Position numbers and translations under genes: made by a program
Notes under the pieces: model-generated
Told to the model about the DNA's origin: nothing
Database searches by the model: none
What the model saw: only the letters and a program-made list of their open reading frames with translations
In this document: positions 2,972 through 19,105 of the stretch, in pieces
How the letters are laid out: every line of letters begins with the position of its first letter
Position numbering within the stretch: the stretch's first letter is position 1
IMG/VR virus record: IMGVR_UViG_3300024294_000063
Location: 1-23,268 of that record
Direction: 5' to 3' (one strand)
Length of the DNA stretch: 23,268 nt
DNA from: a virus

Positions 2972-3370
2972 TTAATTTTTAGTAGCATCAGTTACTTCTG
3001 GTAACTTAAATGCGTTTTGGTTTGCTTCTACTTTTTCCATGTCAAAGTTAATGCTCTCTCCACACCCACAACTGCTTGCGGCTGATGGATTAACAACTTC
3101 TAACATTGTTCCCATTAGATCTTGTTTCAACTCTAATGTTGTTCCTACTAGGAACATAATACTTGAACTGTCAACTGCCATCTTTTGTCCGTTATCCATA
3201 AGTATAACATGATCTGCTTTATTGTCAAGTTCATTTTCTTCTTTTAATTTCCATTCGTAACTAAAACCTGCACAGCCGCCGCCACGCAATCCTAGTACAG
3301 GAATTTTGTTATCGTTTGATTCACTAATTCCTTTTAAATGATTTGCTGCTTTTTCGGTTACTTTAATCAT
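2972..3370 (-). CDS. A-type iron-sulfur carrier (IscA/SufA/ErpA/HesB family)
   Basis: This 132-residue protein carries the full A-type carrier pattern: 'LRGGGCAGFSYEW' with Cys33 and 'NPSAASSCGCGESINF' with Cys101 and Cys103, giving the three conserved cysteines that bind a [2Fe-2S] or [4Fe-4S] cluster. The family passes clusters from the IscU or SufBCD scaffold to apo-proteins. The C-terminus has ~20 residues beyond the usual ~107-residue length. The start overlaps the stop of the upstream membrane protein as TAATG. Further upstream in the same operon lie Nfu-like, ferredoxin and SufT-like genes, so this appears to be one part of a phage Fe-S module. All key residues are present, so it is likely active. 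The subfamily (IscA, SufA or ErpA) cannot be settled by eye. Confidence 0.9.
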   Translation of the reverse strand: MIKVTEKAANHLKGISESNDNKIPVLGLRGGGCAGFSYEWKLKEENELDNKADHVILMDNGQKMAVDSSSIMFLVGTTLELKQDLMGTMLEVVNPSAASSCGCGESINFDMEKVEANQNAFKLPEVTDATKN

Positions 3371-3567
3371 TACTTGCTTCCTATATAACCTGCTATGATT
3401 CCTATCAATCCAGTTAGTGCCATTTTCATTAGTGTAATAACACTTTCATCTACTGGTCTGTTTTCTTGTAATGCTACATAGTAGTCACCTACAATAATAA
3501 CACCTAGTAGTGAAAGTACACCTACTACTAACGCCACTATAATTAAGTCTTTTAAATTTTTAATCAT
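3370..3567 (-). CDS. Small membrane protein with two transmembrane helices
   Basis: This 65-residue protein has two hydrophobic helices, about residues 8-29 ('LIIVALVVGVLSLLGVIIVG') and 45-62 ('LMKMALTGLIGIIAGYIG'), separated by a short polar loop with Glu/Arg/Asp. The N-terminus is basic and the last residues are 'GSK'. The start overlaps the apt stop by eight bases. The size and topology would allow a holin-like or virion membrane role, but there is no direct evidence, and its neighbours are metabolic genes, not lysis genes. Confidence 0.7.
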   Translation of the reverse strand: MIKNLKDLIIVALVVGVLSLLGVIIVGDYYVALQENRPVDESVITLMKMALTGLIGIIAGYIGSK

Positions 3568-4078
3568 TGTTTATCTCCACTGAAGACAAGAGCTCTAGCT
3601 CTCCATCGTTCAAGTATTTTAGGTTTACTATAGTAACCCCACCTAATACTAACGCACCAGCCTGTTCACATAAACGTTTACTAGCGTTCATACTACCACC
3701 TGTTGCTACTAAGTCGTCTGCTATAAGAACTCTGCTTGTATGACCCAATATACCCTCTTGTAGCGTGAGTGTATCTGTTCCATACTCTAGTTCATAACTT
3801 TCTTCTAACAACTTACCTGGGTATTTAGCCCCTTTTTTCCGTATCATAACAAAGGGTATATTTAATTCTTGTGATAATGCCGCTCCTAACACAAAACCTC
3901 TGCTTTCGATACCAACAATATGTGTTGGCATAAACTCAATGCTTTCTTTGATTGTTTGTGCTATATCTTCCACTTCGCTTGTCCATAAGTCACTAGCAAA
4001 CAAACTGTTTATATCATAAAAGTTTACACCCTTAATAGGATAGTCTGGTACTGTTCTTATATAGTCTTTTATATTCAT
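3560..4078 (-). CDS. apt: Adenine phosphoribosyltransferase
   Basis: This 172-residue protein matches Apt along its length: 'IRTVPDYPIKGVNFYDI' at the N-terminus, 'IVGIESRGFVLGAALS' in the middle, 'MIRKKGAKYPG', 'YELEYGTDTLTLQ', and the PRPP-binding loop 'VLIADDLVATGGSM' (about residues 120-133). Apt makes AMP from adenine and PRPP. In a phage infection this would salvage adenine released by nucleic acid breakdown. The start ATG at 4078 overlaps the kinase stop as TAATG and has GGGAG eight bases upstream; a TTG 15 bases earlier is less likely because it coincides with that ribosome site. Functional residues look intact. Confidence 0.92.
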   Translation of the reverse strand: MNIKDYIRTVPDYPIKGVNFYDINSLFASDLWTSEVEDIAQTIKESIEFMPTHIVGIESRGFVLGAALSQELNIPFVMIRKKGAKYPGKLLEESYELEYGTDTLTLQEGILGHTSRVLIADDLVATGGSMNASKRLCEQAGALVLGGVTIVNLKYLNDGELELLSSVEINND

Positions 4079-4704
4079 TATTTGTTCTCCCAAATATCTT
4101 GTAAGTAATTACTATCGTAATCTACAAGTCTTCCTTGTGTTCCAAGTCGACGCTTAATAAGGTTTATTTCTATTGCTCTTGGTGTATTAATTCCATATCT
4201 AATCGCTCCATCGTGATCAATATTAGTCCAATTTAAATCTTCATCTATCATAATGTTTCCCTGATGATAATCATTAAATACTAAATGTCTAAGGTTTGCA
4301 TATCTACGTTTTATATTATCTCTGTAATAAACTACATAATCTTCTATATTATTAAACTGGTTTATTAGTTCTTTGGAATGGAGTCTATAGTAAGTATCAA
4401 TTTTCTGTTGTTCTAAATACAAATAATAGTTAGGCTTATATTCGTAATCAGTAATACAATTATCTATTGAATTTATTATTTTAATCGCATCTTGTATACC
4501 TTCATCAACTGATGAATAGTTTTTGTTATAGTAGTCTAAGTTTCCTTGTTCAATTATCTTTGGCCCAAGAAATATTTTAAAAAACTTGTTTTCGTTTTGA
4601 ATTATTGTTTTAGAAAAAGATACAAATCCACGATATCCAGGTTTGATATTCATGCCTTTAAAAATTTGCTGAGCTTGTTCAGTATATAAATTCTTATAAT
4701 CCAT
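4078..4704 (-). CDS. APH/choline-kinase-like small-molecule phosphotransferase
   Basis: This 208-residue protein has the catalytic signature of aminoglycoside/choline/sugar kinases. 'LVFNDYHQGNIMIDED' (about 141-156) matches the catalytic loop H-G-D-x-H-x-x-N, with Asp145 and Asn150 in place and Phe-Asn replacing the usual His-Gly. 'TNIDHDGA' (about 160-167) matches the metal-binding 'IDWE/IDFD' motif, and 'FFKIFLG' near residue 41 could hold the nucleotide-binding lysine. Family members phosphorylate sugars, amino alcohols or antibiotics; the substrate here is unknown. The ATG at 4704 overlaps the upstream stop as TAATG with GGAG six bases away. Its place beside two glycosyltransferase-like genes makes a role in modifying a glycan or sugar plausible (inference). 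Confidence 0.6.
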   Translation of the reverse strand: MDYKNLYTEQAQQIFKGMNIKPGYRGFVSFSKTIIQNENKFFKIFLGPKIIEQGNLDYYNKNYSSVDEGIQDAIKIINSIDNCITDYEYKPNYYLYLEQQKIDTYYRLHSKELINQFNNIEDYVVYYRDNIKRRYANLRHLVFNDYHQGNIMIDEDLNWTNIDHDGAIRYGINTPRAIEINLIKRRLGTQGRLVDYDSNYLQDIWENK

Positions 4705-5615
4705 TATATACTCCACTCTTTATTTAATTTATTACCACTTGGACCGTTTCCTGTGGTTATATCTGGCAACACTGGAAGAATACTAAGGCCAAAATCATCT
4801 AGCCAATTGAACCATAAATTATGTGCTGCTGGAAAACAATCGCCTTTTATTTCCTTTGATATGTTACTAAATGGGATAGCTACATTTTTTGTTGCAAGTT
4901 TTCTTTGCAAAAATGGAAGAGCTCGAAACACAAATATATGATCATTTATAAATGGAATACTACCGTCTGGCTTCAACACAACTTGATTTGTGGATAAGAC
5001 ATCTGCTGTATCATCAGTGAAAAAATATCTATGGTCTTTATTATTACTCCACCAAAGATGTAATATTTTTTTAAATAACTCTATATGTTTATTAGGATCC
5101 TTACTATCAGGATCATAGTTATTATGATGTAAAATGTTATTATCCCATCTTAATCTAACTATTAGTTCATATTTCTCCCATCCTGCGCCTACGTCTATTT
5201 GTTGGAAGCATCTATGTGCTGACCAGACTTGACCAATACCTCCATATATACGTTGTTTGGCAAATTCAATAAAATTACCATTATCATTTAATATTTCTTG
5301 ATATTCTTTTTTATCATGCCATTCTGAACGCCAAGGTATAAATTGAGAAAAATGTTGATTACGCTCTCTTAGTGTGGGATTTGTTGTTAGTTCTTCCCAA
5401 ATAGTAGCTTGATCTTCTTTTTCAAAGTTTTTGAAGTTATTTAGTATATGCTTATTTGGTGTTTCTTGATCTGCCCAGGTATGTCCATATAGGTCATAAT
5501 CAAACTCACTAAACAAATCAAGTACATTAAAAAAATCTTGTGTATATAAAGGATCACTATTTAAATGTCTAGTTTGACCACTTACACAAATTGCTATTTT
5601 TGGTTTATCACTCAT
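4704..5615 (-). CDS. Glycosyltransferase-like protein, downstream tandem copy
   Basis: This 303-residue protein begins 'MSDKPKIAICVSGQTRHLN', an N-terminal beta strand plus loop of the kind seen in GT-A/GT-B-like sugar enzymes. It continues with 'DYDLYGHTWADQE', 'FIEFAKQRIYGGIGQVWSAHRCFQQID' and 'LIVRLRWDN', where the aspartate after the strand could be metal-binding. The family is not firmly identified; it resembles polysaccharide-biosynthesis glycosyltransferases. It is clearly a duplicate of the preceding gene, with near-identical N-terminal ~50 residues and a diverged C-terminal half. The start at 5615 is one base after the previous stop region and matches the paralogue's start; the frame is open for 27 more codons upstream, but that would overlap the paralogue. 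Confidence 0.6.
   Translation of the reverse strand: MSDKPKIAICVSGQTRHLNSDPLYTQDFFNVLDLFSEFDYDLYGHTWADQETPNKHILNNFKNFEKEDQATIWEELTTNPTLRERNQHFSQFIPWRSEWHDKKEYQEILNDNGNFIEFAKQRIYGGIGQVWSAHRCFQQIDVGAGWEKYELIVRLRWDNNILHHNNYDPDSKDPNKHIELFKKILHLWWSNNKDHRYFFTDDTADVLSTNQVVLKPDGSIPFINDHIFVFRALPFLQRKLATKNVAIPFSNISKEIKGDCFPAAHNLWFNWLDDFGLSILPVLPDITTGNGPSGNKLNKEWSI
5452..5527. repeat. 76-bp perfect direct repeat, copy 1 (in downstream paralogue)
   Basis: Positions 5452-5527 are identical base for base to 6329-6404 (offset 877). The repeat covers the codons for the shared 'VLDLFSEFDYDLYGHTWADQETPN' region of the two tandem paralogues. Similarity continues on both sides with scattered changes. This points to a recent duplication or to gene conversion, because silent positions have not diverged. 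Confidence 0.9.
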
Positions 5616-5616
5616 A

Positions 5617-6492
5617 TTATGTTTTCCATTTTTTATTTGTTGGCGTAACACCATTACTGGTGGTGTATAAACCGACAGGCAGAATAGGATAAACACTCCA
5701 ATTCATATGTTTTAGCCAGTATGCCCATAGTGTATGAGATGATGGAAATGCACCACCACTACGATATATTAATCTATTACTTTTATTATTAGCCATTTCA
5801 GTAAATATCTTTACTGGATTATGTATTATTAGTTCTCTTACTTTATTTGTATTAATAACAAAAAGAAAATCATCAATAAATGGTAACTCAGGTTCTATAT
5901 AGCTTTGATTAGTTGCTAACACATCTAATGTATGTCGCTGCATTAACACATTATCGAGCATTCCTGCAAACGATTTAAGAAGTTTTCTAAATTCTGCATG
6001 GTCTGTACTTTGAGTATCTATTAGGAGATCCCATCTTAGTCTAACTACAAATAAATATTCTGTACTAAAATCAATTTGTTGAAAGCATTTATGTGCTGAC
6101 CAAATTTGTCCAAGGTTGCCGTATATACGTTGTTTAGCAAATTCAATAAAATCTCTTTTGCCGTTTAGTGTATCAGTGTATGCATGCTCATTATACCATT
6201 CTGAACGCCAGGATATGAATTCAGAAAAATGAATATTTGCATCTTTTACTACTTTATTAGTTGTTAGTTCTTGCCAAATAGTGTCTTGATCTTCTTTTTG
6301 AAAATCAGTAAAAAGTTTTAATACTTTATTATTTGGTGTTTCTTGATCTGCCCAGGTATGTCCATATAGGTCATAATCAAACTCACTAAACAAATCAAGT
6401 ACATCAAAAAAGTCTTGCATAAACTTAGGGCTTTGGTTTAAATGTCTAGTTTGCCCGCTTACGCAAATTGCTATTTTTGGTGTATCACTCAT
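5617..6492 (-). CDS. Glycosyltransferase-like protein, upstream tandem copy
   Basis: This 291-residue protein is the paralogue of the next gene: 'PKIAICVSGQTRHLN', 'DYDLYGHTWADQE', 'FIEFAKQRIYGNLGQIWSAHKCFQQID' and 'VVRLRWD' are shared in the same order, and C-terminal features such as 'FPSSHTLWAYWL' parallel 'FPAAHNLWFNWL'. The copies differ mainly between residues ~185 and 250, which may mean different acceptor specificity. A role in decorating a glycan on the virion or the host surface is inferred from resemblance to glycosyltransferases and from the neighbouring kinase; no definite catalytic motif was recognised. The start overlaps the end of the Nfu-like gene by eight bases. Confidence 0.6.
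   Translation of the reverse strand: MSDTPKIAICVSGQTRHLNQSPKFMQDFFDVLDLFSEFDYDLYGHTWADQETPNNKVLKLFTDFQKEDQDTIWQELTTNKVVKDANIHFSEFISWRSEWYNEHAYTDTLNGKRDFIEFAKQRIYGNLGQIWSAHKCFQQIDFSTEYLFVVRLRWDLLIDTQSTDHAEFRKLLKSFAGMLDNVLMQRHTLDVLATNQSYIEPELPFIDDFLFVINTNKVRELIIHNPVKIFTEMANNKSNRLIYRSGGAFPSSHTLWAYWLKHMNWSVYPILPVGLYTTSNGVTPTNKKWKT
6329..6404. repeat. 76-bp perfect direct repeat, copy 2 (in upstream paralogue)
   Basis: This is the partner of the repeat at 5452-5527. The two lie in the same phase of two consecutive genes, so recombination between them would delete one gene body and leave a single chimeric gene in frame (877 is not a multiple of three, but each copy sits in its own gene's frame, so the fusion keeps frame). 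Confidence 0.9.
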
Positions 6493-6802
6493 CAGGTGGA
6501 AAATCCATTACTCCAGGATCGCTCATATAATATGGATCGCTGAACATTGGATCGTCTTCACTTGTTACACCTTTAATTTCTTCAATAAAATGCATTAGTG
6601 TGCTTTCAACACCCATTTTAAGTGTTTCTGTACTACTAGCACATCCACTACAACTTCCACTCATTTGTGTGTGTAGTATTCCAGTTTCTTCGCTGAAGCT
6701 TAGAATGTTTATTTGTCCACCGTGCATTGCTACATTAGGTGCAACGTATTCTTCCATAACTTCATCTACTTGTTTAAGTATTTCTTCTTTTGTTCTACTC
6801 AT
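6485..6802 (-). CDS. Nfu-type iron-sulfur carrier (NifU C-terminal domain)
   Basis: This 105-residue protein is a stand-alone NifU C-terminal domain. 'EYVAPNVAMHGGQINILSF' (about 18-36) matches the family's 'IRP.l..dGGdi.lv' start, and 'MSGSCSGCASSTETLKMGVE' (about 47-66) holds the CxxC pair Cys51/Cys54 that bridges a [4Fe-4S] cluster between two subunits. Nfu proteins deliver [4Fe-4S] clusters to late targets, including radical SAM enzymes. The acidic C-terminal tail (~20 residues) is extra. Its ATG overlaps the stop of a 50-residue membrane ORF. Together with the A-type carrier, ferredoxin and SufT-like genes it supports an Fe-S maturation role. Key residues are intact. Confidence 0.88.
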   Translation of the reverse strand: MSRTKEEILKQVDEVMEEYVAPNVAMHGGQINILSFSEETGILHTQMSGSCSGCASSTETLKMGVESTLMHFIEEIKGVTSEDDPMFSDPYYMSDPGVMDFPPDE

Positions 6803-6947
6803 ATCTGTACCTCGTTTTTTTAATATTCATCATATGAATACTACGTTCAATTTTATCTTCTTTACGTCTAGCAAACTTATAACCAGCGAAAAAAGATAGT
6901 GCCATTACTGTACCAATGGCTAGTAAATGCCATACTAAAAATGTCAT
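6795..6947 (-). CDS. Tiny membrane protein (50 aa)
   Basis: A short open frame from ATG 6947 to TAG 6795 encodes one N-terminal membrane helix ('FLVWHLLAIGTVMALSFFAGY', residues 3-23) followed by a very basic tail ('KFARRKEDKIERS'). It overlaps the preceding small ORF as ATGA and the nfu start by eight bases, and GGAG lies seven bases before its ATG. The tight packing in the operon and the clear membrane helix make it likely to be a real gene. Its function is unknown. Confidence 0.6.
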   Translation of the reverse strand: MTFLVWHLLAIGTVMALSFFAGYKFARRKEDKIERSIHMMNIKKTRYRYE

Positions 6948-7111
6948 ACTGTTTCTCCGTTGTTTATCACCTCTTCAATACGGTGATATGGATATGCCTT
7001 CGGGCGTACCTCTTTAATTTTTTCTAAATATTCCTGTGCGTCTGTTTCAGTATGGAAACGTGCAACAGAAATCTCATCGTGGATTCTTGGTGTATAGATT
7101 ATTTCGTACAT
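6944..7111 (-). CDS. Small hypothetical protein (55 aa)
   Basis: This open frame between the ferredoxin and the tiny membrane ORF encodes 55 residues starting 'MYEIIYTPRIHDEISVARFHTE', with a helical 'DAQEYLEKIKEV' segment and 'YPYHRIEEVI' near the end. The strand-helix-strand pattern suggests a small folded domain. Its stop overlaps the next ATG as ATGA. An in-frame ATG at 7120, overlapping the ferredoxin stop, would add three residues; an AGGGAAAGG site lies before both, so the start is uncertain. No family is recognised. Confidence 0.6.
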   Translation of the reverse strand: MYEIIYTPRIHDEISVARFHTETDAQEYLEKIKEVRPKAYPYHRIEEVINNGETV

Positions 7112-7112
7112 A

Positions 7113-7466
7113 TTATTCATCGCCTTTCCCTGGCTTATAAGATAAATGTTCTCTTTTATCTTTTACTTTTGCCCATTCTTCCGCATCAGGCGGAACATCG
7201 CTTGGCCGAGCTACCGTAATATTTGGCCACTCCTCGGACCTATCTGCATTAAACTTGTACCAGAAATCATATTCTTCTCCTTCTAATGCACTGTCTGGAA
7301 CAATAGCATCTACTGGACATTCTGGCTCGCATACACCACAGTCAATACATTCATCTGGATTAATTACTAAGAAGTTTTCACCTTCATAGAAACAATCTAC
7401 TGGACACACTTCTACGCAATCCATGTGTTTACATTTAATACATTCGTCTTTAACTAAATATGTCAC
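7113..7466 (-). CDS. fdxA: 7Fe ferredoxin ([3Fe-4S][4Fe-4S], FdxA type)
   Basis: This 117-residue protein matches alphaproteobacterial FdxA nearly residue for residue over its first 55 positions. Cys9, Cys17 and Cys50 fit the [3Fe-4S] site; Cys21, Cys40, Cys43 and Cys46 fit the [4Fe-4S] site; the extra Cys12 and Cys25 occupy the same places as the free cysteines of Azotobacter-type ferredoxin I. The C-terminal half ('[19 protein letters not shown]') is also typical. It is a small soluble electron carrier. The start codon is GTG (7466) with AGGAG six bases upstream. The close match to bacterial FdxA suggests acquisition from a host related to Alphaproteobacteria. It could supply electrons to the radical SAM enzyme or to host or phage reductases (inference). 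Confidence 0.92.
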
Positions 7467-7467
7467 T

Positions 7468-7770
7468 CTATACTCCTAAAATTAATTTTGCTTCTTCGCT
7501 CATTTTATCCGGCCCAAAAGGTGGATCAAATGTAATCTGGACATCACATGTATCAATGCCTTCAACCATACATACTGCTTCATGTACATCTTCTTTAATT
7601 TCATCTGCCATTGGGCAGAATGCACTTGTTAACGTCATTACAATAACAACGTGCGAACTTACTATATTTATTTCATATATTAATCCTAAGTCATAAACGT
7701 TTATGCTTATTTCTGGGTCATATACATCTCTTAAATTATCAATAATTGATTGTTTAATTTCTTTAATCAT
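7468..7770 (-). CDS. SufT/MIP18-family (DUF59) Fe-S assembly factor
   Basis: This 100-residue protein shows the hallmark segments of the MIP18/SufT/PaaD family in order: '[17 protein letters not shown]' (about 18-34), '[18 protein letters not shown]' (about 41-58, with the conserved Cys), '[16 protein letters not shown]' and '[11 protein letters not shown]' at the end. Relatives help mature Fe-S proteins (SufT, the eukaryotic CIA factor MIP18) or, as PaaD, assist a particular oxygenase. The ATG at 7770 lies one base after the aminopeptidase stop; a longer frame to 7800 would overlap pepA by 29 bases and is less likely. As the first Fe-S gene behind pepA it is probably transcribed from the promoter at 9153-9181. 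Confidence 0.88.
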
Positions 7771-7771
7771 A

Positions 7772-9121
7772 TTAGTAAGACATTTTTTCTTCAACTGCAA
7801 ACCACTGAAAACTATCAGTACTGTCTACAAAATTGAATAATGTTTTTACTCCAAATCCAACTGCACCCTTTGGTGTTATTGCGTTTCCACTTTTAGACCA
7901 GCACATACCTGCAATATCTAAATGTGCCCATGCTGTTTTCTTGTTTACAAATTTGTATAAGAACTCTGCAGCAGTAGTTGAGCCACCATATGGACCGCCA
8001 ATGTTTTGAAAGTCTGCAATTTCACTGTCAATCATTTTAGCCCAGTTCTTACCCATTGGCATACGATAAAAACCTTCACCGCCTAACTCGCCATTTTCAA
8101 TAATTGCTTTTTCTAATCCATCACTGTTAGTAAACAGTCCTGCCATTTCGTTACCTAGTGTTGCAACGATGGCTCCTGTTAGTGTAGCAAGATCAATAAT
8201 AGCACCTGGGTTGTATTCGCTTTGCACATATGTTAAAATGTCACCTAGCACAAGTCTACCTTCTGCATCAGTGTTTAAGTTTTCAACATATTGTCCACTT
8301 AATGATCTAACAACATCACCTGGCTTGATTGCTTTACCGTCTGGCATGTTCTCTACTAGTCCTACAATACCAATAACGTTTTTCTTTAGTTTTTTATCAG
8401 CAATAGCATGCATGGCTCCTACAACTGATGCACTACCACCCATGTCGTATTTCATATCGCCCATGTTACGTCCTGGCTTTAAACTAATACCGCCTGTGTC
8501 AAATGTAACACCTTTGCCTACTAGTGCAATTGGTTGTTCGCCTTCTGGTCCATGCAAGTGTTCCATTATAACCACCGCACTGTTATTCTCACTGCCTTGA
8601 CCTACGCTTAACAACATGTCCATACCAATGCGTTCTAGTTCACGCTGATAAATTACACGCACTTTAACACCAAGCGGTGTAAGTGTTTCATTAATACGGT
8701 CTGCATATTTCTCAGGATATAATGCGTTACCCGGCTCTGTAATTAAATCACGTGCAAAATTAATGCTTGTACTAATACCTGCTGGTTCTATTTGTAGTTT
8801 GTTTTCTTTTGGTTTTGTTTTATATTTGTTAAATTCATATGCCGCCAGTGCTGCACCTTCTTTAACATCATTTAATCTAGTAACATCAAATACAATTTCA
8901 TCTACAGTTGATTTGTATTTCTTTACCATATTTCCGCCCAACTCACGTGCTTCTTGTGAATTTTTTGGTGCGTCTTTGATTACTGTAATATAATCATATT
9001 CGTCATGTGCAAACGATAAAGTAATAGACTTTTCAGTCATGTCCTTAGTTGCTTTTTTAATATTGTTGCCTAGTTTGTTTGCCTGCTTACTGCCTGCAAG
9101 TACTATAAGTGCCTTAGCCAT
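7772..9121 (-). CDS. pepA: Leucyl aminopeptidase (M17 family)
   Basis: This 449-residue protein is a complete M17 metallo-aminopeptidase. The C-terminal catalytic domain carries 'LVGKGVTFDTGGISLKP' (about 201-217), 'MKYDMGGSASVVGAM' and the signature 'NTDAEGRLVLGD' (about 283-294), which hold the two-metal ligands and catalytic Lys/Arg. The N-terminal domain is shorter than in E. coli PepA (503 residues). The enzyme removes N-terminal residues from peptides; some PepA proteins also bind DNA in site-specific recombination and transcription control. In phage it could recycle peptides made by ClpP-type proteolysis (inference). It is the first gene behind a perfect sigma70-type promoter, with AAGGAG just before the ATG. 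Confidence 0.93.
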   Translation of the reverse strand: MAKALIVLAGSKQANKLGNNIKKATKDMTEKSITLSFAHDEYDYITVIKDAPKNSQEARELGGNMVKKYKSTVDEIVFDVTRLNDVKEGAALAAYEFNKYKTKPKENKLQIEPAGISTSINFARDLITEPGNALYPEKYADRINETLTPLGVKVRVIYQRELERIGMDMLLSVGQGSENNSAVVIMEHLHGPEGEQPIALVGKGVTFDTGGISLKPGRNMGDMKYDMGGSASVVGAMHAIADKKLKKNVIGIVGLVENMPDGKAIKPGDVVRSLSGQYVENLNTDAEGRLVLGDILTYVQSEYNPGAIIDLATLTGAIVATLGNEMAGLFTNSDGLEKAIIENGELGGEGFYRMPMGKNWAKMIDSEIADFQNIGGPYGGSTTAAEFLYKFVNKKTAWAHLDIAGMCWSKSGNAITPKGAVGFGVKTLFNFVDSTDSFQWFAVEEKMSY

Positions 9122-9659: not shown

Positions 9660-10352
9660 ATGCGTAATTTAGTAATATGCCATCCAAGATGTGGATCGTC
9701 TGCATACATAGAACATTTATATACGTTAGAAAATATAAGACCAACTGGATTTAGTGAAATATTAAGTTTGAAAGAAGATAACCATTTCACAAACAATGAG
9801 TTTTTAAGAAAAATAAATTTAAAAGAAAATTATAATATACATAATGCACAAGATGTTAAAGAAATAATAAAGTTATGTATTAATAATAATGTTCCTCTAA
9901 ATTTAAAATTTTTCCCACAGTGGCAATGTCAATGGGACGAAGATATTTTAAGTTATATTATAGATCACTATGAATTTAATGTTACGTTACTGTATAGAGA
10001 GTCATTAGTAGAAACACTAACAAGTTATGTATTGGCAACATATACAGGACTATGGAGTAGTGATTTTCATACAACACATACACATAGTTTTTTTGCATTA
10101 GAAAAAGATATAACAAGGACAGTAAACGGCGTTCTATATGACAGTATAATTCCTTTTTTAGAAATAGCAAATAGTATGAATACAACAAAAAAAATTACAT
10201 ACGAAAAAGACATATATAACAAATTAAACCATATAACATTAAAAAAACTATATAAAAATGGAGAAAAAGAAATAATTCTGCATAATTACATGGAATTAAT
10301 TCTTTCATTAATTCATAAAGCAGGACTTGGAGAAAAAATATGCGTAAATTAA
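9660..10352 (+). CDS. Sulfotransferase-like protein (first of plus-strand pair)
   Basis: This 230-residue protein begins 'MRNLVICHPRCGSSAYIEHL', a strand followed by a P-loop-like 'PRCGSS' resembling the 5'-phosphosulfate loop (PRSGST type) of PAPS sulfotransferases. Further on, 'FNVTLLYRESLVETLTSYVLA' (about 106-126) resembles the 3'-phosphate site, where Arg and Ser bind the 3'-phosphate. Sulfotransferases move a sulfuryl group from PAPS to sugars, lipids or proteins. The C-terminal half is unrecognised and very rich in Lys, Asn and Ile. AGGAAG precedes the ATG. This gene and the next overlap by 13 bases and are the only rightward genes in the window; their A-rich codon use makes a separate origin likely. 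Confidence 0.5.
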   Translation: MRNLVICHPRCGSSAYIEHLYTLENIRPTGFSEILSLKEDNHFTNNEFLRKINLKENYNIHNAQDVKEIIKLCINNNVPLNLKFFPQWQCQWDEDILSYIIDHYEFNVTLLYRESLVETLTSYVLATYTGLWSSDFHTTHTHSFFALEKDITRTVNGVLYDSIIPFLEIANSMNTTKKITYEKDIYNKLNHITLKKLYKNGEKEIILHNYMELILSLIHKAGLGEKICVN

Positions 10353-11074
10353 AAGATAAACATATATTTGTTAGCTTTGAACAAGGAACAAATGGATACA
10401 AACTAGGAAGAGTCCTAGCATCATTGCCTTGCATGCATTGGTACAGTTGTGAAGAAAATGGCAAAGCGCCATGGAATATAGCTAATTCTGTTAATAAACA
10501 TAAATTTAGTGGAATAACTCCACATGGAGAACTTCCTCCTACACATGATGCAGTTGAAAAATATATGCCTAACGAAAAACAATACTATAAATTGTTTGAT
10601 GAGTTGTTTGAAAAGAATGGCGGTAGTGATATAATCAGCAACGGCGAAAGAGTGATATATTGTACTCACAGTATGCCTGCTAAGATATTAGAATATTTTC
10701 CTAACAGTGTAATTTTTAATATTGTACACGAGCCAAGAGATACAACTAACAATTACATAGAAGAAATAAAAAATACTCCTGCTTATGTTAGGTATGAAGG
10801 AATAGTTCCCGAAGATAATGAATATTTAAAATTTTTAGAAATTTTGAATGGTAGAAAAGAAGAGTTAACCTTAGCTGATGTATGGGCGTTTGAAAGAAAA
10901 AAGAAATTCTTTGAGCCTAAACTGGAAGATAAATTACAAAAAGAAGTGTATGCTAAAGTATTCTCAAATAGTATATTTCGTAGAACTTTTAAACATGACA
11001 GAGTGTTCAACACTACTTCAAAATTTAAGCCTAAAGAAATAAAAGACTGGTTAGATAGTTTAGAACTAGAGTAA
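10340..11074 (+). CDS. Sulfotransferase-like protein (second of plus-strand pair)
   Basis: This 244-residue protein starts 'KHIFVSFEQGTNGYKLGRVLASLP', a strand-loop-helix resembling a nucleotide-binding loop of sulfotransferase-type enzymes. 'VIFNIVHEPRDTTNNYIEEI' (about 124-143) resembles their 3'-phosphate binding segment. The C-terminal ~80 residues are charged and helical. The canonical loop sequence is not well kept, so a different P-loop-like fold is possible. GGAGAAAAAAT precedes the ATG, which overlaps the first gene by 13 bases and gives a two-gene unit. The 3' end overlaps the convergent gene at 11066 by nine bases with no terminator between them. The substrate is unknown. Confidence 0.4.
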   Translation: MRKLKDKHIFVSFEQGTNGYKLGRVLASLPCMHWYSCEENGKAPWNIANSVNKHKFSGITPHGELPPTHDAVEKYMPNEKQYYKLFDELFEKNGGSDIISNGERVIYCTHSMPAKILEYFPNSVIFNIVHEPRDTTNNYIEEIKNTPAYVRYEGIVPEDNEYLKFLEILNGRKEELTLADVWAFERKKKFFEPKLEDKLQKEVYAKVFSNSIFRRTFKHDRVFNTTSKFKPKEIKDWLDSLELE

Positions 11075-15212: not shown

Positions 15213-17906
15213 TTAAAACTCAAACAAACTGTTAAAATTACTCTTAGCCGCTGCTTTATCTAAATCCCACTTTAACACACTAAGTAAGTTTTCTAATTTT
15301 TTACTAACCACTACGTTTTCCATATGATCATCATCAAATGGCAAGTCTAAAAACCACTGCGGAAGCCTTGTTTCATCTGTAGGATAACCTACACTTGTCA
15401 TTCCAAGTGGATTGTCTTTTAGTCTGCAAACAACAGTTTTCATACCATCAACAATTTCATTAGCATAGTTATCACTGTTAATCTCTCTTAACTTGTTCCA
15501 GTTAAGTGCAGCAGTAACATGCCCTGGCATTGCTGGTTTCTTAATGTCACCTGTTGTTTTGTTATTGTTGTGTGCTATTTTACGATCTCTTTCAAACTTC
15601 TTCATTTTGCCTTTATACGAAGTTAGGTTGTTAACACGCTTTGGAGAACCTTTTTCCCAACTAGGTTTTTCTCTGTATTCTTTACGGAATTCAACAATTT
15701 TATCAAGTATCTCTTGTTCTTCAGCACCCGTAAGTACTTCAAGCAATACATCTTTTAAAAAGTCTTGCATCCAAGGTGGTGTATCACTACGCTTTAGATC
15801 TAAGCCCATTGCTTTAATATAACCTGCTTTGCCGTCTACATCTTCTCGTTTACCTTCGTTGTCAACTACTAACATTGCATAACGCTTCTTTGTAATAAAC
15901 AAACCTGCACTACCTACCATTTCTCTACCAGCGGCAATAATTGTACCCAAGTCTAGTGTAGTATGAAATGTTCTACTCATAAAGCCAGGAAACGTTTTGT
16001 TTACTTCTTCGCATATTGCATCATAATAACTAATGATAGTATCAACATCCCAATTAATTTCTTTGTTTTTAATTTGATCTTTTAGCATAGGATACGAACT
16101 AAAATATGTAGAATCTGTATCACCATATACAATTGCTTTACCCTGATGATCATATTCGCCTGCAATAATCTTATTAAGCTCTGCGGCCATATGTTTAGCA
16201 ATACAACGACCAGTAAGTGTTGTACTTTGTCCTAGTCTACTGTCAAAGAATCTACTGCCAGGATTAAGTAACGCACCATACAAACTGTTCAAGTTAATCT
16301 TTTTAACCAACTGTCGTTTATCCCAAAACGCAAACTTATCTCCACCTTCTGCTCTAGCATCACGAGCCTTTGCTTGCAGTTCTTTACGCTCTGCATACCA
16401 ACGCTCTAGTAATCCAGGAATAATACCTTTTTTCTCATATGTAAAGATTGTACCATTAGCACTAATAATCCAAGGTTGTCCACTGTTAAACACAATTTCA
16501 TATATCTCTGCGCCAGTGGCTTCAAAACTAGTTCCATCCTCAAAGTCTAAGTGTAGCAATTCGTCAATGTTCTTATCCATTACAAGTTCATACTCTTGAC
16601 AAGCAAACTTTCCTTCCCATGCTTCAGCAACTGTACGAGCCTTTTGAATCATGTCTTTTGTGTAAGTGTGTCGCACTTGCCCAATAATAGTTTCAGTACT
16701 CATATTACAACTACGAATAATACTAGGATACAGTGAGTTCAAGTCAATACTTCCAACCCATTTGTGCATACCTTTTTTAGGTGTTGCAACGTAGGCACCT
16801 GCGGCTTGTGTTGAATCTCTGTCGTAACGCTTGTCAGGAACAATTAAGCCTTTAGTGTGTGCTTCGTTAATAATTGCTTGGTCTGTTTGTGCAACCGCAC
16901 CCATTGTTGTTTGTAGCAACACTGTGTTAGAATGTGCTAACACATTTGCTAAGTCAATAAACTGTAGCTTCTTGTCTAAGTTTACAAGCAAGTCAACATC
17001 TTGTCTTGAATAAGCAATAAACTTTTCAAAGTCATTGTTGTATAGTTGATCTAGTGTACCTTCGTAATCTACTTTGCGATCACCTAACTCATATTCACCA
17101 ATTGCATCTAGAGAATAACTGTGCATTTCGTGATATGTATACTTTCTATACAATTGCATATAGTCCATGTGTACACGACCATGTAAATCATATGTTTGTT
17201 GCTCTGCTCCAAAACGCTCAAACTTTCGTTCTTTGGGAAGCATGTCCCATAAACAGAACTTGCGTGTGTGACTTTTACTCATTACCCTAGATACTCTGTT
17301 TACAAGATACGGAATATCAAAGCCTTCACTGTTCCAACCTGTTAAAATATCTGCATCATCTATTAAGTCTAAAAACGCTTCAAGCATTTCTCGTTCTGTA
17401 TTAAACAGAATAGTATTCTCAAACTTATTAGTAACAGTTTCTGCTTCTTCAAATGTCATAGTTTTAGGACCAATAGCAAGACAAATTGTTGCATTCATCC
17501 AACTGTTGTGCAAACTAATTGCCGTTACAGCATTGAAAGGATCTTCGGGTGGAGCAAACCCTACTTCTTTGTTAAAGTCTGTCTCAATATCAAAGAAACA
17601 AACATTTAGTTCTGGAACTGATTGTGGATCATAATTCTCTGCGAATGTTTTAAAAATAACATTTACATCACTTTCATACAAGCCTTTGTGTCCATGTATC
17701 TTTTTCTCAGTGTTAAACTTTTTGCTTGTGTTACACACAATGCGTTCTAGCTTCTCACCAAAGATACTTGTAAATTTACCTTTAGGGTCTTTGTAATAAA
17801 ATGTGTACTTGGCAGGAATTTCTCTGAATTCTCTTTTGCCGTTGATTCGTTCTACAACTTGTACAATGTCTTTGTTTTTATCGTGGTGTGCGTCTACGTA
17901 GCTCAT
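15213..17906 (-). CDS. 43: Family B DNA polymerase, T4 gp43 type
   Basis: The 897 residues are almost the length of T4 gp43 (898). The 3'-5' exonuclease domain has 'FFDIETD' (Exo I, Asp106/Glu108), 'GWNSEGFDIPYL' (Exo II, about 190-201) and 'YSRQDVDLL' (Exo III, about 300-308). The polymerase domain has 'DLNSLYPSIIRSCNMS' (motif A, near 390-404), 'KKINLNSLYGALLN' (motif B) and 'VYGDTDSTYFS' (motif C with both catalytic aspartates). The short C-terminal 'FNSLFEF' resembles the sliding-clamp binding tail of gp43. It replicates the phage genome with high fidelity. The ATG overlaps the radical SAM stop as ATGA. All key residues are present and there is no intron, intein or split. Confidence 0.97.
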   Translation of the reverse strand: MSYVDAHHDKNKDIVQVVERINGKREFREIPAKYTFYYKDPKGKFTSIFGEKLERIVCNTSKKFNTEKKIHGHKGLYESDVNVIFKTFAENYDPQSVPELNVCFFDIETDFNKEVGFAPPEDPFNAVTAISLHNSWMNATICLAIGPKTMTFEEAETVTNKFENTILFNTEREMLEAFLDLIDDADILTGWNSEGFDIPYLVNRVSRVMSKSHTRKFCLWDMLPKERKFERFGAEQQTYDLHGRVHMDYMQLYRKYTYHEMHSYSLDAIGEYELGDRKVDYEGTLDQLYNNDFEKFIAYSRQDVDLLVNLDKKLQFIDLANVLAHSNTVLLQTTMGAVAQTDQAIINEAHTKGLIVPDKRYDRDSTQAAGAYVATPKKGMHKWVGSIDLNSLYPSIIRSCNMSTETIIGQVRHTYTKDMIQKARTVAEAWEGKFACQEYELVMDKNIDELLHLDFEDGTSFEATGAEIYEIVFNSGQPWIISANGTIFTYEKKGIIPGLLERWYAERKELQAKARDARAEGGDKFAFWDKRQLVKKINLNSLYGALLNPGSRFFDSRLGQSTTLTGRCIAKHMAAELNKIIAGEYDHQGKAIVYGDTDSTYFSSYPMLKDQIKNKEINWDVDTIISYYDAICEEVNKTFPGFMSRTFHTTLDLGTIIAAGREMVGSAGLFITKKRYAMLVVDNEGKREDVDGKAGYIKAMGLDLKRSDTPPWMQDFLKDVLLEVLTGAEEQEILDKIVEFRKEYREKPSWEKGSPKRVNNLTSYKGKMKKFERDRKIAHNNNKTTGDIKKPAMPGHVTAALNWNKLREINSDNYANEIVDGMKTVVCRLKDNPLGMTSVGYPTDETRLPQWFLDLPFDDDHMENVVVSKKLENLLSVLKWDLDKAAAKSNFNSLFEF

Positions 17907-19105
17907 TCTTTAATCCAATATTTCTCTAGTTCGGGTATATACTTAATTATACTTGTTTTTCTGTGTTTGTCAAGAATATCTATAGTTTTACAAAACAATT
18001 TCCAGTCATCTTCGTCTTGTTTTGTACGTGGTGTTCTCAAGTGATCTACTATCATATTAAGTCTTGATTCTTTGCCAAACTTTTGTTCTATTTCGTCTGC
18101 TAACTTATTTTTATATTCAATATCTGGATGTACAGATATACTTAAATATTTTGGCCCTGTTAGTGGGCTATTAAAATTAAATCCAATATCTTGCTTGGGT
18201 ACAAATGTTTCTAACCAAGTTATATAATCACTTATGTTATATACATTCATTAATTGTGGTGTATATGCAATTGACACTGTTAAGTGTTGATTATAATCTT
18301 TAATTCTATCTTGTATATCAGTTCCTTTGTACTTGCCAAACGGTATGCTTGGTCTTATATATTCGTATAAATTATTTACACCATCCATGCTTACAACCAA
18401 TGTAGAATTTAATGTTTTTATCTTTTCAAAGTATGCTTTGTCAACTAATGTAAGATTTGTTATTATTTTTAGTTTGCCTTTGTAGTTATGTTCTATTAAC
18501 TTATCAACTAGGTATTTGAATTGTGGCATATAAAAAGGTTCGCCGCCACTTACATCTATTAATTCTGTTTTAAGTATAACATCTAAGTTGTCATCTATAA
18601 AACTTATAGGTAACCCATACTCTCTATTTTTTGGATTGAAAACTACTTGGCTTACTTCTTCTTGAGTTAAATTATCTTCAATTACTTTTATATCTTTGTA
18701 CCAACCTGTACTTCTGTGTGGGCTACACATTGTACATCGTAAATTACATGCATTACTAAAATCTACTTTAAACTTTTTAATTTGTTGTTCTAGATTAGTA
18801 AAATCTACATTATTGTTTAGGTCTGATTTGTATTGAATCCAGTTATTGTAACGCATACTTGAATCTGCATACTGTTCTGATTTCTCGCATAGTTGGCACC
18901 CTGATGGCCAAATGTTATTGAGTGTTTGTTGTCTTGCTAATTTATAGTCCGGTCCATTAAATGTATCGCTAAATTTTACATCTTTTATATGTCCAACGAA
19001 CCCTTTGTGTACACAACAAAATCCTATTCTGCCTTCCTGGTCAACATGGACTTCTGTCCAAGGACTTATACAAAAGGTATTTGTAGGAGACGTTTTATTT
19101 TGCAA
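17903..19105 (-). CDS. Radical SAM enzyme with N-terminal auxiliary cysteines (twitch/SPASM-like)
   Basis: The core has 'CNLRCTMC' (CxxxCxxC at about 120-127, binding the SAM [4Fe-4S] cluster) and 'VSGGEPFYMPQF' (GGEP motif, binding the SAM amino group). Before it, 'TFCISPW' (Cys12), 'GFCC' (Cys30/31) and 'CQLC' (Cys70/73) form the N-terminal cysteine set seen in radical SAM enzymes with an extra twitch/SPASM-like cluster. Such enzymes often modify peptides; the substrate here is unknown. The start is likely TTG at 19105, because AAGGAG lies nine bases before it; a frame extended to TTG 19156 would overlap the methyltransferase by 62 bases and lacks a properly spaced ribosome site. It sits between a DNA methyltransferase and the DNA polymerase. 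Confidence 0.8.
   Translation of the reverse strand: MQNKTSPTNTFCISPWTEVHVDQEGRIGFCCVHKGFVGHIKDVKFSDTFNGPDYKLARQQTLNNIWPSGCQLCEKSEQYADSSMRYNNWIQYKSDLNNNVDFTNLEQQIKKFKVDFSNACNLRCTMCSPHRSTGWYKDIKVIEDNLTQEEVSQVVFNPKNREYGLPISFIDDNLDVILKTELIDVSGGEPFYMPQFKYLVDKLIEHNYKGKLKIITNLTLVDKAYFEKIKTLNSTLVVSMDGVNNLYEYIRPSIPFGKYKGTDIQDRIKDYNQHLTVSIAYTPQLMNVYNISDYITWLETFVPKQDIGFNFNSPLTGPKYLSISVHPDIEYKNKLADEIEQKFGKESRLNMIVDHLRTPRTKQDEDDWKLFCKTIDILDKHRKTSIIKYIPELEKYWIKE

Follow-up and report, generated by a model that had tools for sequence, protein, structure and literature searches.

In the window, by which we mean the whole 23,268-base virus fragment analyzed here (IMG/VR record IMGVR_UViG_3300024294_000063, positions 1 to 23,268), four genes for handling iron-sulfur (Fe-S) clusters lie close together: an A-type carrier, a free-standing Nfu domain, an FdxA-type ferredoxin, and a SufT-like factor. 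To judge from their sequences, they are a real phage operon for Fe-S delivery, conserved in large uncultured marine phages. We consider it probable that this operon supplies and maintains Fe-S enzymes, and that its main clients would be the phage's own radical S-adenosylmethionine (SAM) proteins. Because the window is a fragment, the rest of its phage is out of view.

A preliminary description of the window had named these four families, placed them on one strand (the minus strand), and held their key residues to be intact, and all of this stood up. For each protein, at least one defining Pfam model was matched above its curated cut-off, and every named cysteine was present. The A-type protein matched PF01521 (E = 3.2e-11; 43.9 bits vs. 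a cut-off of 26.3) and passed the general NCBIfam model TIGR00049 (73.1 vs. 58.8 bits); it also matched the ErpA, SufA, and IscA models, each time under the equivalog cut-off. The A-type motif consists of three conserved cysteines, the last two as CxC, and C33, C101, and C103 were all in place. The Nfu domain (PF01106, E = 8.2e-20; 71.2 vs. 27 bits) carries its CxxC at C51 and C54. It is not a full-length NfuA: its 105 residues align to positions 105 to 181 of TIGR03341, below that model's cut-off. The ferredoxin matched DUF3470 (E = 2.3e-12) and Fer4 in Pfam and passed the NCBIfam model FdxA_Protbact (NF045490, 148.1 vs. 135 bits); its family predicts a 7Fe type with one [3Fe-4S] and one [4Fe-4S] cluster, and its cysteines fall at residues 9, 12, 17, 21, 25, 40, 43, 46, and 50. 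The SufT-like protein, with cysteines at 52, 67, and 75, matched PF01883 (DUF59; E = 1.2e-16; 61.2 vs. 23.5 bits) and failed the SUF_assoc equivalog TIGR02945 (115.3 vs. 143.4 bits), which is still its best NCBIfam model.

From the A-type gene to an M17 aminopeptidase gene, neighbors lie one base apart or overlap by up to eight bases, except for a 310-base gap between Nfu and ferredoxin, in which we read two short possible open reading frames (ORFs) by eye. The same run holds genes outside the preliminary description: a phosphoribosyltransferase, a membrane-like protein, a gene with no Pfam match, a pair assigned to PHROG 13607, and the aminopeptidase. The phosphoribosyltransferase passed NF002636 (163.6 vs. 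125 bits) and failed four stricter apt models.

We gathered loci from five scans of viral contigs and searched them with local profiles, giving 240 stretches (239 loci plus the window; locus L001 is itself part of the window, 3.3 kb long). Since the loci were picked up via these same genes or DNA polymerase, the counts of stretches are not prevalences. All four families occurred in 22 of the 240 stretches, which by contig name represent the window and eight other IMG/VR records; among the four-family records, L005, L007, and L008 are close to one another. The A-type, ferredoxin, and SufT families were found together in 13 stretches (12 records), A-type, ferredoxin, and Nfu in four (two records), and two or three families in other mixes, or Nfu alone, in 16. 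A further 74 stretches had ferredoxin alone, 33 had SufT alone, and 78 had none of the four. Independent carriage, an outcome that the preliminary description had said would refute it, is therefore partly real in distant phages, alongside the linkage in the 22.

Gene order in the nearer records mostly followed the series SufT, ferredoxin, Nfu, a variable part, phosphoribosyltransferase, A-type, MazG, DnaE fragment, GroES, ClpP, with L004 departing from it in having Nfu elsewhere. The neighborhoods of SufT with ferredoxin and of A-type with MazG, the DnaE fragment, and GroES were kept at about 50% to 97% protein identity, and in related records the phosphoribosyltransferase sits between ferredoxin/Nfu and the A-type gene. 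The earlier view that the set goes beyond a stray acquisition is supported by this recurrence of order and linkage in related phages. Relatives differ in the part between Nfu and the phosphoribosyltransferase; where the window has its paralogous PHROG 13607 pair (4704 to 6492), some relatives hold radical SAM-like or other genes. The aminopeptidase adjoins SufT also in L002 and L003 and was not seen in L004, L005, L007, L008, or L009.

Pairwise ratios of nonsynonymous to synonymous substitution rates (dN/dS) were 0.03 to 0.23 for the A-type, phosphoribosyltransferase (0.08 to 0.13), Nfu, ferredoxin, and SufT genes, compared over five or six relatives each, with dS often above 1 and saturated; DNA polymerase gave a similar 0.06 to 0.18. 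When the four proteins were searched by tblastn against 50,697 phage records, each matched 8 to 14 records, none at 60% identity or more. The 11 SufT matches in this collection (OR844991, OR847131, and OR846662 among them), all below 60% identity, came from unannotated Listeria, Staphylococcus, Enterococcus, and fecal records and were left unused on suspicion of host DNA. The SufT tree comprised 75 phage and 46 bacterial sequences, and the window's SufT fell within a part made up of phages alone; the window's A-type protein grouped solely with phage sequences, in a clade of 14 (91 in the Shimodaira-Hasegawa-like approximate likelihood ratio test, SH-aLRT). Bacterial sampling was narrow because the bacterial rows came along with SufB. 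Changes between phage and bacteria in the SufT tree numbered two in one run and one in the next, with low deep support.

The case for radical SAM clients comes from the relatives. In a radical SAM domain search of 50 records, nine related records of 79 to 205 kb (G001, G002, G004, G006, G008, G031, G032, G035, and G038, with G004 and G006 near-copies across the module) had 13 to 25 matches each. This corresponds to 8.8 to 22.8 per 100 kb. The 14 named phage records searched for comparison (13 isolates or cultured phages and one single-cell contig) had 0 to 4 matches, with a maximum of 1.63 per 100 kb; 36 polymerase-selected fragments of 11 to 51 kb had 0 to 3. Nfu and A-type were present in all nine related records and SufT in six. 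Six records were fetched and searched with local profiles; five of them yielded a total of 87 radical SAM ORFs, every one keeping CxxxCxxC. The ORF lists behind this count are incomplete: they skipped the Nfu gene of G001 and the ferredoxin gene of G008, both shown by other searches. The N-terminal twitch family NF033640 was matched by 41 of 43 sampled radical SAM proteins (E of 1e-5 or better). The window's own radical SAM protein belongs with them (N_Twi_rSAM, 252.8 vs. 170 bits; CxxxCxxC at C120, C124, and C127). The preliminary description had proposed it as the client; it is one likely client, and with up to 25 matches in relatives a single client is too narrow.

Eleven genes of the radical SAM array are collinear in G001, G006, G008, and G035. 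Orthologs in the array are 49% to 94% identical and nearest paralogs 26% to 40%; therefore, the array is an old, divided set and not a recent burst of copies. It was seen in G001, the nearest relative of the window, and not in the window itself; the window's phage would be expected to share it. Ten proteins flanking array genes included three with a Pfam match over the cut-off and two with weak matches. The companions in G035 are a PNP/UDP-family nucleosidase, an aminotransferase, and an aspartyl-hydroxylase-like protein and, below cut-off, arginine-deiminase-like and ABM/DUF3291-like proteins.

Enzymes that would make SAM and clear its by-products accompany this load. SAM synthetase was found in 10 of the 50 records and in 6 of the 9 related ones, and a PNP-family nucleosidase in 13 of 50 and 8 of 9. 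The SAM synthetase of G035 scores above the metK equivalog cut-off, and in G001, G008, and G035 radical SAM ORFs flank the nucleosidase ORF on both sides, with overlaps or at most one base in between. Among the 29 records of at least 60 kb, a selected sample largely drawn by SufT for which the P-values ignore relatedness, radical SAM counts were 10 to 25 with SAM synthetase vs. 0 to 19 without it (P = 0.0014), and they were also higher with the nucleosidase (P = 0.0037) and with Nfu (P = 0.0067). Excluding the nine related records, the link to SAM synthetase persisted (P = 0.010; 4 with, 16 without), and that to the nucleosidase was weak (P = 0.066). In the parts consulted of the papers cited here, 5′-deoxyadenosine is described as inhibiting radical SAM enzymes and MtnN-type nucleosidases as freeing adenine from it (PMC8102628). 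Together, the SAM synthetase, nucleosidase, phosphoribosyltransferase, and Fe-S genes have the look of a supply line that serves radical SAM enzymes.

Some other phages appear, from their gene content, to carry a whole Fe-S cluster factory. SUFBD_core was matched in 2 of the 50 records, G003 and G013; in G013, SufT, ferredoxin, and SufB follow in succession and run off the record end. With the G003 SufB as query, we obtained 75 viral loci, 28 of which have SufB, SufC, a form of SufD, and SufS on one strand. L331 reads SufB, SufC, a 143-residue SufD-like protein, SufS, SufE, SufT, a small ORF, and A-type, followed by a DnaE fragment, GroES, and a clamp loader, with PhoH on the opposite strand. 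Since the A-type gene is followed within about 2 kb by the DnaE fragment and GroES in both L331 and the window, the Fe-S genes of the two occupy a corresponding place. In L331, SufB, the ABC ATPase, Aminotran_5, SufE, and DUF59 passed their Pfam cut-offs; SufS and SufC miss those of TIGR01979 and TIGR01978, and the A-type protein falls barely under that of Pfam (26.1 vs. 26.3 bits). In bacterial loci from SAR116 (L402, L406, L434) and Pelagibacteraceae (L443), the start of SufT, and after it that of A-type, comes about 4.7 to 5.4 kb after SufB. A tree of 71 phage-record and 80 bacterial SufB rows contained phage-only clades of 19 and 29 (SH-aLRT 95 and 96). A further 23 of the 71 phage-labeled rows, in eight small groups among bacteria, were not used, as they may be host DNA or recent transfers.

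Reduced SufD-like proteins of about 143 to 156 residues also occur in L313, L322, L326, and L332; the L310 SufD has 425 residues. Structure prediction for the mini SufD (five sequences) gave a mean predicted local distance difference test score of 82, the other four models reaching 56 to 69. The first 11 PDB matches of the model were chains of SufB, SufC, or SufD entries or of 1vh4 and 2zu0, both SufD; the best had an E of 2.3e-3 and none fell below 1e-3. The mini SufD is thus predicted to have a SufB/SufD-like fold. We tried terminase as proof that the complete-SUF records are viral and dropped it: PF03237 was in none of the six mini-SufD records searched (G102, G103, G107, G111, G113, and G114), and in 11 of 50 records overall, including the complete-SUF records G105, G109, and G118 and the related G006. 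The viral status of the mini-SufD records is instead suggested by their clamp loader, PhoH, and the IMG/VR call.

We propose the following putative mechanism. Clusters would be made by the host scaffold, or by a phage scaffold in some relatives. The preliminary description had the phage drawing its clusters from the host, having seen no scaffold or desulfurase; this may fit the window's phage, as a Pfam scan of 20 window proteins turned up no scaffold or desulfurase (no SufB, SufC, or SufS), but it may not extend to all relatives, some of which have SufB or a complete SUF operon. The A-type and Nfu carriers, aided by the DUF59 protein, would hand clusters to freshly synthesized radical SAM proteins; the majority of these match the N-terminal twitch family, and they may contain additional clusters. 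Electrons for the radical SAM cluster may come from the FdxA-type ferredoxin, which could instead act in a different redox step. Phage SAM synthetase would maintain the SAM supply, the nucleosidase may cleave 5′-deoxyadenosine and related by-products that inhibit radical SAM enzymes, and the phosphoribosyltransferase of the operon would return the freed adenine to the nucleotide pool. Staphylococcus aureus SufT is needed mainly under high Fe-S demand and shows synergy with nfu (PMC4982691); by analogy, such a role would suit a phage making some twenty radical SAM proteins.

Several results weigh against this proposal. The co-occurrence with radical SAM genes raised in the preliminary description holds for Nfu, but in the 29 records the number of radical SAM matches was tracked by the presence of neither SufT (P = 0.30) nor A-type (P = 0.61). 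Several SufT records of other kinds had no match (G010, G011, G013, G018, G025, G029, and G040), ferredoxin records without SufT could be equally rich (G042, 19; G044, 20), and the profile search did not find PF01883 in G031, G032, or G035. The seven shorter related records (24 to 60 kb) ranged from 0 to 11: G037 and G045 had none, G003 and G007 one each, and G033 and G036 three each, but G039 had 11. The search for SAM synthetase was negative in G001, G004, and G006, as was that for the nucleosidase in G006, though these records may be fragments. The G035 nucleosidase passes PF01048 and fails all NCBIfam nucleosidase cut-offs (methylthioadenosine/S-adenosylhomocysteine), and the phosphoribosyltransferase was not seen in the distant SufT-ferredoxin-A-type loci L011 to L013, L024 to L027, L029, and L163. 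Complete-SUF records had 0 to 13 radical SAM matches, with none in 10 of the 19 searched (of 28). As they are not especially rich, the SUF genes and the array are best regarded as separate traits that meet in some phages.

The main rival explanation is that the module keeps host Fe-S enzymes (respiration, the tricarboxylic acid cycle, aconitase) running during infection or oxidative stress, much as a classical set of auxiliary metabolic genes would. Bacterial Fe-S carriers are not known to be client-specific, and both the indifference of SufT and A-type to radical SAM number and the complete-SUF records with no match would follow readily from it. Host support leaves unexplained, however, why an adenine phosphoribosyltransferase is linked to the module and why radical SAM counts are higher where the nucleosidase and SAM synthetase are present, and we regard it as unlikely. 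The surroundings of the locus, with a DnaE fragment, a GroES-like protein, and ClpP in the window and a clamp loader and PhoH in L331, could instead point to a broad supply for other phage Fe-S proteins, such as replication and repair nucleases, the ferredoxin, or tail proteins, with radical SAM proteins as one part. Given how numerous the radical SAM matches are, in a comparison that covers radical SAM proteins only among phage Fe-S proteins, this seems improbable to us. Finally, the variable stretch between Nfu and the phosphoribosyltransferase, the displaced Nfu of L004, and the many phages with one or two of the genes are what separate acquisitions in one gene-rich locus, with no joint function, would leave behind. 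But neighborhoods that persist in nearer records at about 50% to 97% protein identity and low dN/dS for all genes speak against such loose linkage, which we disfavor and give a very slim chance.

Part of this picture has precedent. The preliminary description spoke of single Fe-S carriers in marine phages, which understates prior work: Nishimura et al. (2017; PMC5332604) described A-type or IscU genes in 16 marine viral genomes. Among these, TARA_ERS488813_N000010 (183 kb, T4-like) shares features with the relatives studied here: it encodes an A-type carrier and a DUF59-family protein, named PaaD in that paper, together with 12 radical SAM genes and other Fe-S genes. Its authors proposed a role in the Fe-S metabolism of host and virally encoded proteins, so the general idea of phage Fe-S genes serving viral proteins is already published. 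The main text of that paper does not contain the words ferredoxin, SufB, SAM synthetase, adenine phosphoribosyltransferase, or nucleosidase, and the parts of it consulted do not include operon order, Nfu, or a SUF operon. Single carriers of the same families are found in marine phages (SufA/ATC, IscU, and NifU in P-SSM2, whose nifU was matched at 33% identity by tblastn), and sufA occurs in two metagenomic genomes of the OM43-phage type (PMC10580990); the window differs in linking several factors and an electron carrier. Compared with the bacterial SUF system (SufBCDSE with SufT and SufA), the window shares SufT and A-type and has only delivery factors plus Nfu and FdxA, whereas L331 has nearly the full set with its SufD-like protein cut to 143 residues. 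A jumbo phage survey discusses metK and mtnN beside a phage auxiliary gene (PMC13037316); it places both in the bacterial genome, and its main text does not contain "radical SAM." A complete phage SUF operon was not named in the literature searched, which was thin on subscription journals and bioRxiv. As far as that literature goes, four findings are new: a conserved operon that includes Nfu, FdxA, and adenine salvage; an association with SAM synthetase and nucleosidase; a radical SAM array that is collinear between records; and phage SUF operons with mini SufD.

Table 1 Features of the window, with positions in the window unless another record or locus is named; some start codons of window genes are chosen inner ATG or GTG codons.
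Feature	Position	Strand	Basis
A-type Fe-S cluster carrier (IscA/SufA/ErpA superfamily)	2972..3370	-	PF01521, TIGR00049, C33/C101/C103
Small protein, membrane-like by eye, overlapping both neighbors	3370..3567	-	ORF; no Pfam family over cut-off
Adenine phosphoribosyltransferase (adenine salvage)	3560..4081	-	NF002636 equivalog over cut-off
Protein without Pfam or PHROG match, part of variable stretch	4078..4704	-	ORF
PHROG 13607 protein, paralog of next gene; variable stretch	4704..5615	-	PHROG match
PHROG 13607 protein; variable stretch	5617..6492	-	PHROG match
Free-standing Nfu-type carrier domain, CxxC at 51-54	6485..6802	-	PF01106, cysteines
FdxA-type ferredoxin, nine cysteines (7Fe type predicted by family)	7113..7466	-	NF045490 FdxA_Protbact over cut-off
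SufT-like DUF59 (MIP18-family) maturation factor	7468..7770	-	PF01883; TIGR02945 below cut-off
M17 leucyl aminopeptidase, one base upstream of SufT	7772..9121	-	PF00883; NF002075 over cut-off
Radical SAM protein, N-terminal SPASM/twitch-like part	17903..19105	-	PF04055, PF13186, NF033640
Radical SAM array (about a dozen genes plus aminotransferase, nucleosidase, and hydroxylase-like genes)	G035:59640-86021; G001:43733-70737		
Radical SAM array, same kind	G008:57168-85062; G006:3469-24629		
Mini SufD-like protein	L331:10065-10493	+	SUFBD_core over 44 positions of 143 residues, E = 3.9e-7

Elsewhere in the window, positions 1721 to 2227 hold a fragment that aligns with a portion of the NTPase domain of DNA polymerase III alpha (PF07733); it is kept at the same place in relatives, though the phage has a family B polymerase. 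ClpP is present in the window and its relatives, and two plus-strand genes (9660 to 11074) are flanked by minus-strand genes. A permuted transfer-messenger RNA (tmRNA) of the alphaproteobacterial type lies near transfer RNA (tRNA) genes in G006 (L245:4633-4979, minus strand) and G035 (L267:14817-15220, minus strand), which hints at an alphaproteobacterial host; the tRNA scan covered G001, G006, and G035 among the records, and the window itself had no Rfam match. SufB similarity was tried as a guide to the host and set aside: the best 80 of at least 588 bacterial matches were at most 69% identical to phage SufB, and because they are spread over many phyla, no host can be named from them.

More tentatively, and at somewhat less than even chance in our estimate, this lineage of large marine phages could run a largely self-supplied radical SAM production line, with a collinear pathway of about a dozen enzymes making some product during infection. 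Its parts would be SAM synthetase, Fe-S delivery (with complete SUF and mini SufD in some other phages), ferredoxin, nucleosidase, and adenine salvage, and the pathway companions would be the aminotransferase and the arginine-deiminase-like and aspartyl-hydroxylase-like proteins. So far, phage Fe-S genes have generally been interpreted as aids to host metabolism; here, the operon accompanies a concrete phage-encoded demand. The auxiliary role thereby becomes testable, and it points toward radical chemistry as an unexplored phage pathway. The phage SUF operons with a reduced SufD would also offer a naturally occurring minimal scaffold on which to study Fe-S cluster assembly.

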